NCBI RefSeq assembly: GCF_023238205.1
Contig: NZ_CP096659.1
Location: 1,054,001-1,118,000 of the forward strand
DNA: 64,000 bases
Source: Halorussus limi
GTDB lineage: Archaea > Halobacteriota > Halobacteria > Halobacteriales > Haladaptataceae
Reading direction: 5' to 3'
Shown here: positions 4,242 through 8,724 of the stretch, one piece after another
Position numbering within the stretch: the first letter of the stretch is position 1
How the letters are laid out: each line of letters starts with the position of its first letter
The notes under the pieces: generated by a model
What the model saw: the letters and a program-made list of their open reading frames with translations, nothing else
Database searches by the model: none
What the model was told of the DNA's origin: nothing
Position numbers and translations under genes: made by a program

Positions 4242-4727
4242 TCACGCCCCGTCGGCGTCGTAGCGCCCGCGGAGTCGGTCGGCGTCGCTCTCGCTCCGCG
4301 AAATCTCGAAGCCCAGCGAGTCGTAGAACGGCCGGACGCCGGGGTCGAACGCGGCGGTGAGTGGCGCGCGGCGCTCGGCCGCGGCGCGGACCAGCGCGGC
4401 CCCGACGCCCTGCCCGCGGCGGGCGCGCCGGACCGCCACGGCGTCGATGTGCGCGGCGTCGCCGGTCACGGTGGGCGCGGCCTCGTCGGTCGCGTCCGGC
4501 CCACCGTCGCCGTGCGGAACCAGCACGAGCGCGCCGATAATCGGCCCGTTCTCGCGGTCTCGCTCGTTAGCGACCAGCACGTCTCCGGCGTCGATTCGCG
4601 CTTCGAGGTCGTCGCGCACGTCGAGCATCGCGGCGTCGAGGACGCGCCGGACGCCGAGTCGGTCGTCCGCGGTGGCCTCGCGGACCGCGACGCGGTCCGG
4701 GCCGTCCGCGCCCCGGTCCCCGCTCAT
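4242..4727 (-). CDS. GNAT family N-acetyltransferase
   Basis: A 161-residue protein starting at MSGDRGADG (ATG at 4727), which overlaps the stop of the upstream SAMP2-redoxin gene as ATGA and implies coupled translation. The acetyl-CoA-binding motif A reads RRARRGQGVGAALVRAA, preceded by the beta strand DAAHIDAVAVR, and the C terminus carries FYDSLGFEISR, the usual GNAT end. The acceptor (protein amine, amino acid or small molecule) is not apparent. Coupling to a gene bearing a ubiquitin-like domain raises the possibility of a lysine-directed enzyme, which is speculation from context. Confidence 0.88.
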   Translation of the reverse strand: MSGDRGADGPDRVAVREATADDRLGVRRVLDAAMLDVRDDLEARIDAGDVLVANERDRENGPIIGALVLVPHGDGGPDATDEAAPTVTGDAAHIDAVAVRRARRGQGVGAALVRAAAERRAPLTAAFDPGVRPFYDSLGFEISRSESDADRLRGRYDADGA

Positions 4728-5533
4728 TCCCCGTCTGCGAGCATGCGGTCGACCATCGCCAGCACGTCGTCCACCGACGGCCTGTCGGCGGGCTTGTCGC
4801 CGCGGTGGACGGCGAACAGTCGCAGGTCGCCGCCGCGGCCGTCCAGAATCGCGGTCTCGGGAAGCCGACCCACGAGGTCGTGGAGACCGCCGAGTTTGCC
4901 CAGTCGCGTCGGCTGGCCGTACTGCTCGGCGACCGACTTGTCGGCGTCGGCGACCACCGGAAACGGCGAGTGGGTCTTTTTCTGCCACTTCTCGGCCTTC
5001 TCCCGCGACTCGGGCAGGACCGAGACGACCGCGGCGTCGCGCTCGCGGAACTCGCCGTACCGGTCGGCCACCTCCTGAACCTGCTGGCGGCAGTTCCGAC
5101 AGCGGTAATCGCGGTGGAACAGCAGGACGACGGCGGCGTTGTCGTCCGGCGGCGTCTTGCTGGCCGTCCGGCGTCGCCCGACGGTGTCGGGGTCGGCCGC
5201 GAGGTCGGACAGACGGAGCGGGTCGGGCCCCGCGCCGGCGTTGGGCAACTCGAAGTCGAGTTCCGAGACCCCGAGGTCCCGGCGCTCGCGGTCGAATTCG
5301 TGGACGAGTCCGGCCTCGACTTCTTCTCTGGGGCCGCTCCCGCCCTTGATGAGTCGAAGCACTTTCACGTGGTCGGTCTCGACGGGTTGGTCCTCGGGCA
5401 CCGGGCGGCCGTCCACCATCACCGAGACCTCGTGGGGGCTGAGGTCAACCTCGGCCAGCAGGTCGGCGTAAGTCGCGTCCTCGACTTCGAAGTCGTGGCT
5501 CCCCTCGCCGACGACTTCGACGGTCACGTTCAT
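4724..5533 (-). CDS. SAMP2-like ubiquitin-fold domain fused to a CxxC redoxin (AhpC/TSA-like)
   Basis: One uninterrupted 269-codon frame from ATG 5533 joins two domains. Residues 1-65 closely resemble the archaeal ubiquitin-like modifier SAMP2, starting MNVTVEVVGEG and ending VKVLRLIKGG, with the diglycine at 64-65 that is the conjugating end of free SAMP2. Instead of a stop, the frame runs through an acidic linker (SGPREEVEAGLVHEF) into a redoxin domain from about residue 90: FELPNAG, the strand VVLLFHRDY, a CxxC at Cys145/Cys148 and a thioredoxin-fold C terminus. I found no internal ATG, GTG or TTG near the junction that would start a separate redoxin, and the codons read cleanly through it. 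The redoxin lacks the PxxxTxxC of classical peroxiredoxins and resembles the haloarchaeal redoxin/BCP-like group. Confidence 0.85.
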   Translation of the reverse strand: MNVTVEVVGEGSHDFEVEDATYADLLAEVDLSPHEVSVMVDGRPVPEDQPVETDHVKVLRLIKGGSGPREEVEAGLVHEFDRERRDLGVSELDFELPNAGAGPDPLRLSDLAADPDTVGRRRTASKTPPDDNAAVVLLFHRDYRCRNCRQQVQEVADRYGEFRERDAAVVSVLPESREKAEKWQKKTHSPFPVVADADKSVAEQYGQPTRLGKLGGLHDLVGRLPETAILDGRGGDLRLFAVHRGDKPADRPSVDDVLAMVDRMLADGE

Positions 5534-5695
5534 GCTAGCGAGGTTCCGCGTCGCGAGTGGTAAGCGTGTCGGGAGTGGCGGAGAGCGTGCATCGCGTTCG
5601 CGGCGGTCCGAGAGTGCTTCGGGAGCGTCGATCGAATCCGGAGGGAGCGGCCGCTTTGCGAAAATCTATGGAATCCACGACGCTACGTTCGCACG

Positions 5696-6417: not shown

Positions 6418-7476
6418 CTACACCGCCGTCTCGCGGTCGTACTCGTCCGCCCGGCGACTGCGCCGCTTCCGCAGGCCGCCCCAGACGCCCGCGGCCAACG
6501 CGCCGAGGCCGAGCAAGAGGACGACGAACTGGAGCAGGCCGCCGAGAATCGGGACGAAGCCGACCAGCGAGACCACCGCGAGACCGACCGCGAGCGCGAC
6601 CCACCTGCTGTCGCCGTCGGCGAGTCCGACCAGCCATCCGCCGAGCGCGAACGCGCCGTAGACGTATCCCAGCCACAGCGCGAAGCCGTAGAGCAGTATT
6701 CCGAGGAGACCGAGCGGAATCCCGACGAGCGAGATGAATAGCAGGACAAGCAGTACCGGAACCCCGACGAACAGCAGGAGACCGACTCCGGCCGACCGGA
6801 GCGGGTCCGCGGCGGCCCGGTCGGCGACGCCCGCGGAGAACCGCGGGAAGACCAACAGCGCAATCGCGCCGAGGACGAAGTTCGCGACGAACCCGTACAC
6901 CGCGCCGACCCAGTTCGGGAACAGCGGCCCGGTGAACCCGACCCCGAGGTCGAGGTCGGGTTCTCGGCGGACCTCGCCGTCGATTCGGGCGCCCGGCGCC
7001 CGGTCGAGGTCGCCGTCGTAGACGAAGTCGCCGCCCACGGCCGCGCTCGGGCCGAGTCTGATGGTTCCCGCACCGACCCGCGCGGTCCCGCCGATTTCGC
7101 CCTCGACCACGGCGTTGCCGGTGGCGGCCTCCAACTGACCGCCGATTCGACCGCCCTCGGCGAGGAGGAAGTTGCCGCCCGCGACGTTGGCGTCGCCGGT
7201 CACGGTGCCGTTGACCCGGACGTTCCCCGCGAAGGCGTCGAGGTCGCCGTTCACCCGCCCCTCCACGAACACGTTGCCCGCGAACGCGGTCACGTCGCCG
7301 TCGACCGTGCCCCGAACGACGACCGTCCCGCCGAACGCGGTCAGGTCCTCGGCGACCGTCTCGCCCTCCTCGACGACGACGGTGCCGCCGCTCCGGGTCT
7401 CGTCGGCCGCGACCGGCGCGGGCACCGCGGCGAGGACGACCAGCACCGCGAGGAGGAACGCGTATCGCTTGTCCAT
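6418..7476 (-). CDS. Secreted/membrane polymer-forming (bactofilin-like) beta-helix protein
   Basis: A 352-residue protein from ATG 7476. It opens with a Sec-type signal (MDKRYAFLLAVLVVLAAVPAPVAA). Residues 25-170 are short repeats such as GTVDGDVTAFAGNVFVEG, GRVNGDLDAFAGNVRVNG and GTVTGDANVAGGNFLLAE, the beta-helical rungs of the polymer-forming/bactofilin family. The last 160 residues contain four or five strongly hydrophobic segments ending in a basic, cytoplasm-like tail (RKRRSRRADEYDRET). The rungs should face the cell exterior. Relatives are common in haloarchaea and are thought to scaffold the envelope, but no function has been assigned here. It is divergent from rfcS. Confidence 0.85.
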   Translation of the reverse strand: MDKRYAFLLAVLVVLAAVPAPVAADETRSGGTVVVEEGETVAEDLTAFGGTVVVRGTVDGDVTAFAGNVFVEGRVNGDLDAFAGNVRVNGTVTGDANVAGGNFLLAEGGRIGGQLEAATGNAVVEGEIGGTARVGAGTIRLGPSAAVGGDFVYDGDLDRAPGARIDGEVRREPDLDLGVGFTGPLFPNWVGAVYGFVANFVLGAIALLVFPRFSAGVADRAAADPLRSAGVGLLLFVGVPVLLVLLFISLVGIPLGLLGILLYGFALWLGYVYGAFALGGWLVGLADGDSRWVALAVGLAVVSLVGFVPILGGLLQFVVLLLGLGALAAGVWGGLRKRRSRRADEYDRETAV

Positions 7477-7665
7477 GTCGAACCTGTCGGCGGGTCGGTG
7501 GATAGTAGTTTCGCGGTTATCGTCAAAACCGAAGGTTAAGCCCGCCCTACGGGCCGACGAGTCGGAATGTCGAGGAGACGGGGCCAAACGCTCCGGGGAA
7601 ATCGAGCGTCGGTCGGGGTCGGAGTCCGACGCCGGCGGGGGACGGCCGGCCGGAACCTCGGGGAG

Positions 7666-7671
7666 TTTAAG
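7666..7671 (+). promoter_or_regulatory. TATA-like box for rfcS
   Basis: TTTAAG lies 25 bases before the rfcS ATG at 7696, the spacing expected for a haloarchaeal leaderless transcript. Confidence 0.5.
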
Positions 7672-7695
7672 ACCGGGAAGCCCCACGTCTCTCTC

Positions 7696-8724
7696 ATGAG
7701 CGAGGTCGAGAGCGAGGCCGACGAGGTGGCCGAATCGGACGAGGCCGTCGAACCGGACGAGGCGGCCGAGGCCGGGCGCGACGAGATATGGATCGAGAAG
7801 TACCGGCCCGAGCGACTGGACGAGGTGGCGGGCCACGAGGACATCACCGAGCGCCTGAGCCGATACGTCGAGCGCGACGACCTGCCGAACCTGCTGTTCT
7901 CGGGACCGGCGGGCGTCGGCAAGACGACTTCGGCGGTCGCCATCGCCAAGGAACTCTACGGCGACGACTGGGAGAGCAACTTCCTCGAACTCAACGCCTC
8001 CGACCAGCGCGGCATCGACGTGGTCCGGGACCGCATCAAGAACTTCGCGCGGTCGTCGTTCGGCGGGTACAACTACCGCATCATCTTCCTCGACGAGGCC
8101 GACTCGCTGACCAGCGACGCCCAGTCGGCGCTCCGCCGGACGATGGAGCAGTTCTCGTCGAACACCCGGTTCATCCTCTCGTGTAACTACTCCAGTAAGA
8201 TTATCGACCCCATCCAGTCGCGGTGCGCGACGTTCCGGTTCGGCCCTATCTCTGACGAGGGCGTCACCGAGCAGATTCTGAAGGTCGCCGAGCAGGAGGG
8301 CATCGAGACCACCGAGGACGGCGTCGAAGCGCTGGTCTACGCCGCCGACGGCGACATGCGCAAGGCCATCAACGCGCTACAGGCCGCGGCCGTGATGGGC
8401 GAGGTCGTCGACGAGGAGGCCGTGTTCACTATCACCAGCACGGCCCGCCCCGAGGAGATAGAGGAGATGGTCACTCACGCCATCGAGGGCGACTTCAGCA
8501 AGTCGCGCTCGATTCTCGACGACCTCCTGACGAACAAGGGGATGGCGGGCGGCGACATCATCGACCAACTCCACCGGTCGGTCTGGGAGTTCGACCTGAG
8601 CGACGAGGCCACGGTCCGACTGATGGACCGCGTGGGCGAGGTCGATTACCGCATCACCGAGGGCGCGAACGAGCGCGTCCAGTTGGAGGCGCTGCTGGCG
8701 TCGCTGTCGCTCGAACAGAATTAG
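7696..8724 (+). CDS. rfcS: Replication factor C small subunit
   Basis: A 342-residue AAA+ clamp-loader subunit. After an acidic 28-residue haloarchaeal extension, the RFC box [17 protein letters not shown] is followed by Walker [11 protein letters not shown] (69-78), Walker B FLDEAD, sensor 1 SCNYSSKI and the SRC arginine-finger motif in QSRCATFRF. It loads the PCNA clamp on primed DNA with ATP. The start at 7696 is chosen because upstream in-frame codons are Arg/Gly rich and precede the TATA-like box. No intein is present, although archaeal RFC genes often carry one. Confidence 0.97.

Follow-up and report, generated by a model that had tools for sequence, protein, structure and literature searches.

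Halorussus encodes its only SAMP2 as an in-frame fusion to a redoxin, a likely precursor of the ubiquitin-like modifier

The window analysed here, a stretch of 64,000 nucleotides from Halorussus limi (contig NZ_CP096659.1, positions 1,054,001 to 1,118,000), contains a gene in which the ubiquitin-like modifier SAMP2 runs in frame into a redoxin. The locus raises the question of how a modifier whose diglycine lies in the middle of a chain becomes functional, and why its partner is a redoxin. From comparative sequence evidence we consider it likely that the sole SAMP2 of Halorussus is a precursor cleaved after Gly65, most likely by the protease JAMM1, with release of SAMP2-GG and the redoxin.

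An earlier note, made from the letters of this DNA alone, had described residues 1-65 as a complete SAMP2-like modifier ending in LIKGG. This description was borne out by the SAMP2 equivalog model NF041919, which matched with 115.7 bits (cut-off 70) over its full length (model positions 1-66 of 66), and by the Pfam SAMP2 family (PF21965, 1e-30). As the note had also stated, the redoxin follows in the same frame; the 269 amino acids are read without a stop from the minus strand, which the note had left unstated. Residues 132-232 matched AhpC-TSA (PF00578, 1.8e-17, 63.9 bits, curated cut-off 26) and residues 134-258 Redoxin (PF08534, 1.3e-9, 38.4 bits, curated cut-off 26.6), so that the HMM search of both domains suggested in the note recovered the SAMP2 and AhpC/TSA families above their cut-offs. 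With the model for SelL-related redox proteins (NF040769), the redoxin remained below the curated cut-off (60.7 bits vs 120). The AF2 model, based on a shallow alignment of 20 fused homologues, was confident for the SAMP2 domain, which displayed the SAMP2 strand and helix pattern, and mostly confident for the redoxin domain. The pLDDT was below 50 over residues 64-106, which places the diglycine at the edge of a predicted disordered segment. As modelled, the SAMP2 domain has a beta-grasp-type fold with a diglycine tail that is internal rather than terminal. The linker was not simply acidic, as had been claimed, but of mixed charge. The coupling of the GNAT gene by ATGA was correctly recognized: its ATG at 4727 overlaps the stop codon of the redoxin. 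The features of the locus are listed in Table 1. The promoter-like element GACACGCTTAC may act as a TATA/BRE, and its position would be compatible with a leaderless transcript beginning at SAMP2.

Table 1. Features of the SAMP2-redoxin locus, in positions of the window
Feature	Position	Strand	Basis
SAMP2-redoxin fusion gene, 269 aa	4724..5533	(-)	stop-free translation; orthologues in 17/18 Halorussus genomes
SAMP2 domain, residues 1-65, end LRLIKGG	5339..5533	(-)	NF041919, PF21965, AF2 pLDDT ~92
Internal diglycine Gly64-Gly65 (GGC GGG), cleavage predicted after Gly65	5339..5344	(-)	invariant in 18/18 Halorussus
Linker, residues 66-92, disordered and hypervariable (18-56 aa in Halorussus)	5258..5338	(-)	pN/pS, AF2, lengths multiple of 3 nt
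AhpC/TSA-type redoxin domain, residues 93-269	4727..5257	(-)	PF00578, PF08534, Foldseek
Cys148 codon, near-invariant redoxin Cys, candidate peroxidatic Cys	5090..5092	(-)	5enu alignment; redoxin alignment
Cys145 codon, first Cys of CRNC; Ser in 7/18 Halorussus	5099..5101	(-)	
GACACGCTTAC, promoter-like element upstream of SAMP2 ATG	5560..5570	(-)	same or near sequence in 18/18 Halorussus loci
GNAT acetyltransferase gene, ATGA overlap with fusion gene	4242..4727	(-)	PF13508, 3.6e-9

A fusion seen in one assembly could be an artefact of sequencing or assembly that conceals a stop after the diglycine, as the earlier note had itself pointed out. Nothing in the window supports this explanation, and its probability is negligible: SAMP2 and redoxin lay in one frame in 17 of 18 separate Halorussus genomes, the window's included and with one SAMP2 each, every one of the 17 fusions had a linker whose length was divisible by three, and fusions were present in other genera too. 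The note had also raised the possibility of a second SAMP2 copy, but the window genome holds no SAMP2 besides the fused one. A second copy of the fused redoxin was not found in this genome, and a search of plasmids yielded redoxins, with no SAMP2-redoxin fusion among them. In the order as a whole, SAMP2 was near-universal and almost always present as a single copy (386/392 genomes).

The remaining Halorussus genome, G017, has a Gly codon run that is one base shorter (L021:1440-1470); its SAMP2 reads GGAV before the stop, which shares bases with a GTG (GTGA). This split would fit a mode of expression in which internal initiation, reinitiation or frameshifting near the diglycine yields two separate products. 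As G017 is nested inside the genus in the redoxin tree, however, its split appears to be either a derived reversal or a homopolymer error. Furthermore, 10 of the 17 linkers are devoid of any in-frame ATG, GTG or TTG, among them that of the window, for which the note had rightly reported no plausible internal start, and no start codon is conserved among the linkers. Two separate products are thus very improbable, and because a conserved internal start is lacking, the SAMP2-linker-redoxin chain would be translated as one unit that begins at the start codon of SAMP2. The redoxin of G012 (a 62%-complete MAG) is broken near residue 203. This 3' end and the G150 locus look like broken MAG genes and were not relied on; G150, a 72%-complete MAG, was rejected as a further fusion because its SAMP2 is garbled before the diglycine.

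Selection along the fusion was assessed as pN/pS by Nei-Gojobori proportions in 16 Halorussus fusions. The values were 0.14 for the whole SAMP2 domain, 0.033 for its last ten residues (ten codons only), 0.78 for the linker, and 0.44 for the redoxin, the switch from strongest constraint to near neutrality occurring right after Gly65. A ratio for the g38 redoxin pair was set aside as meaningless because the matches were fragmentary. Gly64 and Gly65 were invariant in 18/18 Halorussus genomes with synonymously varying codons, and the LRLIKGG tail was kept. Such strong selection suggests that the tail is in use, as a C-terminus that is never activated would be expected to drift. The sister genera g2 and g3, which belong to the same family, have a SAMP2 that ends in GG-stop and overlaps the ATG of the next gene (GGATGA), which reads like a GNAT gene. 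The tail of these unfused SAMP2s was under similar constraint (pN/pS 0.061), showing that the fusion left the constraint on the tail unrelaxed.

The window genome (G000) encodes a JAMM1-type protein (C1:607818-608267) with the motif E...HSH-x7-S-x2-D and relatedness to PfJAMM1 (5lda, E 1e-6), and in addition a JAMM2-like protein, a JAB-E1 protein, UbaA-type and NcsA-type genes, and two further genes for ThiS/MoaD-type ubiquitin-like proteins (Ubls). JAMM1 was present in 18/18 Halorussus genomes and in all four genomes with fusions outside the genus, as judged by a cut-off chosen by eye on the PF14464 best matches, which were distributed bimodally across the order (~1e-15 to 1e-25, or ~1e-7 to 1e-13). 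The C-terminus of SAMP2 was inspected in 190 genomes, and the 171 near-complete ones (>=90%) were used for counts. Residues after the GG were present in 55/139 genomes with JAMM1 vs 0/32 without it (Fisher p 1e-6), in 38/122 vs 0/32 when Halorussus was left out (p 5e-5), and in 22/42 vs 0/14 when counted by genus (p 3e-4), p values that are indicative only, since related genomes are non-independent and the sample favours high-scoring SAMP2s. That tails occur only together with JAMM1 among near-complete genomes is predicted by a role of JAMM1 in SAMP2 maturation. Two JAMM1-negative genomes had a tailed SAMP2, and both are incomplete (63% and 71%).

Several other proteins with related features were observed. 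Many haloarchaea have SAMP2 tails of 1-24 residues after the diglycine. One ThiS/MoaD-type Ubl of the window genome (C1:660920-661171) reads ...FPPVAGG followed by ~22 more residues, and a 475-aa protein of the same genome (C1:1447851-1449188) consists of an N-terminal JAB followed by an E1-like ThiF domain and adjoins a same-strand ORF of 163 aa.

Processing of such fusions has precedents. HvJAMM1 cleaves a linear SAMP1-MoaE fusion precisely after the GG in vivo and in vitro, the uncut fusion being inactive (PMC4443979), and archaeal Ubl precursors are substrates of CsJAMM and CsRpn11 (PMC6043591). By analogy, the SAMP2 of Halorussus, a modifier that needs a free terminal glycine pair, very probably must be cut free before it can work. 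A JAMM/MPN+ metalloprotease, most likely JAMM1, would cut the chain after Gly65, although JAMM2 or another protease could take its place. Judging from orthology to Haloferax volcanii, where SAMP2, UbaA, and NcsA are required for thiolated tRNA-Lys(UUU) (PMC4048286), the freed SAMP2-GG would be adenylated by UbaA and would serve wobble-uridine thiolation with NcsA as well as sampylation. The redoxin would be set free in an amount equal to SAMP2. With less certainty, it probably acts in the same redox-linked SAMP2 pathway, as target or thiol partner, given the recurrent adjacency or fusion of the two genes in haloarchaea.

The earlier note had weighed a precursor cut by a JAMM-type protease against a permanently modified redoxin. 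If the protein stayed fused, it would be a constitutively SAMP2-tagged redoxin, and other Ubls, for which the two further ThiS/MoaD-type genes would be candidates, would carry tRNA thiolation and sampylation; the intact fusion could also bring the redoxin close to SAMP2-binding proteins. An unused C-terminus should drift, however, whereas LRLIKGG is under strong selection in 18/18 genomes and the residues next to it vary freely. Moreover, tRNA thiolation in H. volcanii depends on SAMP2 itself (PMC4048286), and near-complete genomes show tails only with JAMM1. The single copy of SAMP2, selection, predicted disorder, the presence of JAMM1, and the distribution of tails therefore favour the cleaved precursor, as we infer, and make a permanent fusion improbable. 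The cleaved precursor could also be refined, rather than replaced, by partial and redox-regulated cleavage, in which intact and cut forms coexist and the fusion serves as a reserve of SAMP2 under the control of stress. This would be in agreement with the induction of H. volcanii sampylation by mild oxidants (PMC5587910), with a redoxin as the fusion partner, and with a fused state that arose more than once, but an element regulating cleavage was not found and the linker sequence is unconserved, so that we regard such a reserve as rather unlikely.

The survey of haloarchaeal genomes for the same fusion or for adjacent split genes, as proposed in the note, revealed both kinds. In ~35 genomes of families f3, f5, f6, f8, and f15, unfused SAMP2 and redoxin genes are same-strand neighbours, usually <=350 bases apart. 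For 41 genomes the hit tables held both coordinates, and in 24 of these, which include G017 and some fusions, no more than 1 kb separated the genes, which in every case shared a strand. Other in-frame fusions outside Halorussus were found in G265, in G221 and G097, and in G324. For the fused label, a tree of 71 redoxins requires four changes, three of them forced by starred branches, so that fusion or its reversal took place three times or more among haloarchaea; the simplest account would be gains in Halorussus, in g38 plus g89, and in g82, together with the reversal in G017. The nearest relatives of the Halorussus redoxins in this tree belong to genus g8 of family f6, where the gene order is SAMP2, redoxin, GNAT and where, in G032, a TGA follows the diglycine. 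The GNAT gene completes the SAMP2-redoxin module. In genus g55 of family f5, a Pfam scan revealed redoxin and GNAT as one protein downstream of a separate SAMP2 gene.

A Foldseek search with the redoxin gave peroxiredoxins (Prx1, Prx4, PrxQ) as top matches (probability 1.0, E 5e-8). In a phmmer alignment to the PrxQ-type protein 5enu, Cys148 stood opposite the peroxidatic Cys (TPGC) and Cys145 at the usual T/S position. The note had spoken of a CxxC redoxin; the redoxin was confirmed and CxxC is present here, but this motif is not conserved, since the first Cys is replaced by Ser in 7/18 Halorussus genomes (SxxC) and the second in 1/18 (CxxS), namely in G007, which reads CRKS. Outside Halorussus the first Cys is sometimes Ala. 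Across haloarchaea generally, the first position varies among Cys, Ser, and Ala and the second is nearly fixed. The alignments suggest that the second Cys, Cys148, is likely the active thiol. We also considered whether the degenerate CxxC signifies loss of function and did not adopt this reading, as SxxC is close to the T/SxxC typical of peroxiredoxins and only one Halorussus genome lacks the second Cys. The window sequence RDYRCRNC deviates from the strict PxxxT/SxxC motif by Arg for P and Cys for T/S, and we therefore call the domain a peroxiredoxin-fold redoxin rather than a peroxiredoxin.

The link to thiol stress assumed in the note was supported as far as genomic association goes, SAMP2 and redoxin genes being neighbours or fused in six families and the tree forcing the fused state to change at least three times. 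In yeast, Urm1 is conjugated to Ahp1, and Sulfolobus Urm1 does so in yeast as well (PMC12645042); S. islandicus Urm1 modifies two peroxiredoxins (PMC12625751). Together with the oxidant-induced sampylation cited above, these reports make a functional link between SAMP2 and the redoxin plausible. Their repeated linkage suggests, if less firmly, that the redoxin is a dedicated partner of SAMP2, an echo of the yeast Urm1-Ahp1 pair. A tentative extension, which we consider possible but would not expect, is that SAMP2, redoxin, and GNAT make up one functional module of haloarchaea: the redoxin, whether target, carrier, or E2-like adaptor, would use its thiol to sense the oxidative state or to pass it on to the activation or conjugation of SAMP2. 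Both fusions, of SAMP2 to redoxin and of redoxin to GNAT, would then be frozen forms of this module, which would be the archaeal equivalent of the Urm1-Ahp1 axis.

Ubl precursor fusions and JAMM processing are already known. The closest design is that of MoaD-MoaE and SAMP1-MoaE proteins (Deinococcus DR2607, mycobacterial MoaX, engineered SAMP1-MoaE), in which an N-terminal Ubl with an internal GG is fused to a functional partner and released by JAMM (PMC8832034, PMC4443979), a release that is predicted here. Halorussus shares with them the Ubl-GG followed by an in-frame partner domain and an intact-motif JAMM/MPN+ protease in the genome, but the partner is a redoxin instead of MoaE, and the Ubl is SAMP2, with functions in tRNA thiolation and sampylation, instead of MoaD. 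The Caldiarchaeum ubiquitin/SAMP precursors are likewise archaeal Ubls from which the residues after the GG are removed by Rpn11 or JAMM (PMC6043591), yet these residues form a short tail, whereas Halorussus has a folded, separately conserved domain. Makarova and Koonin described in 2010 Ubl-Cgi121 (KEOPS) fusions in Thaumarchaeota and Ubl-OsmC neighbourhoods in Thermococcales (PMC2948915). The former are also lineage-wide archaeal Ubl fusions, though with another partner and with processing undescribed in that paper; the latter likewise place a Ubl gene beside one for a peroxiredoxin-type protein, but of the OsmC family rather than AhpC/TSA and with no fusion reported there. Yeast Urm1-Ahp1 also couples a Urm1-type modifier to a peroxiredoxin in oxidative stress (PMC12645042), as a post-translational lysine conjugate, whereas in Halorussus the modifier is genetically fused to the N-terminal end of the redoxin. 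In the literature searched, which took in few subscription papers, neither a fusion of SAMP2 to a redoxin nor a pairing of their genes was reported.

If the proposed cleavage takes place, the whole genus Halorussus would rely on proteolysis for its only SAMP2 and would offer a naturally occurring genetic experiment on whether JAMM1 is a maturation protease. Through fusion and gene pairing, an archaeal ubiquitin-like modifier is also tied to a peroxiredoxin-fold protein, with a bearing on the coupling of Urm1 and peroxiredoxins in eukaryotes. In related archaea the two genes stand next to each other or were fused independently, a sign of an inherent connection of protein tagging with thiol stress.

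Elsewhere in the window, an ORF at 6418-7836 (-) combines a stretch of the polymer-forming bactofilin type with a hydrophobic C-terminal portion. At its upstream end it overlaps the gene for the replication factor C small subunit at 7567-8724 (+), and its true start therefore probably lies further downstream.
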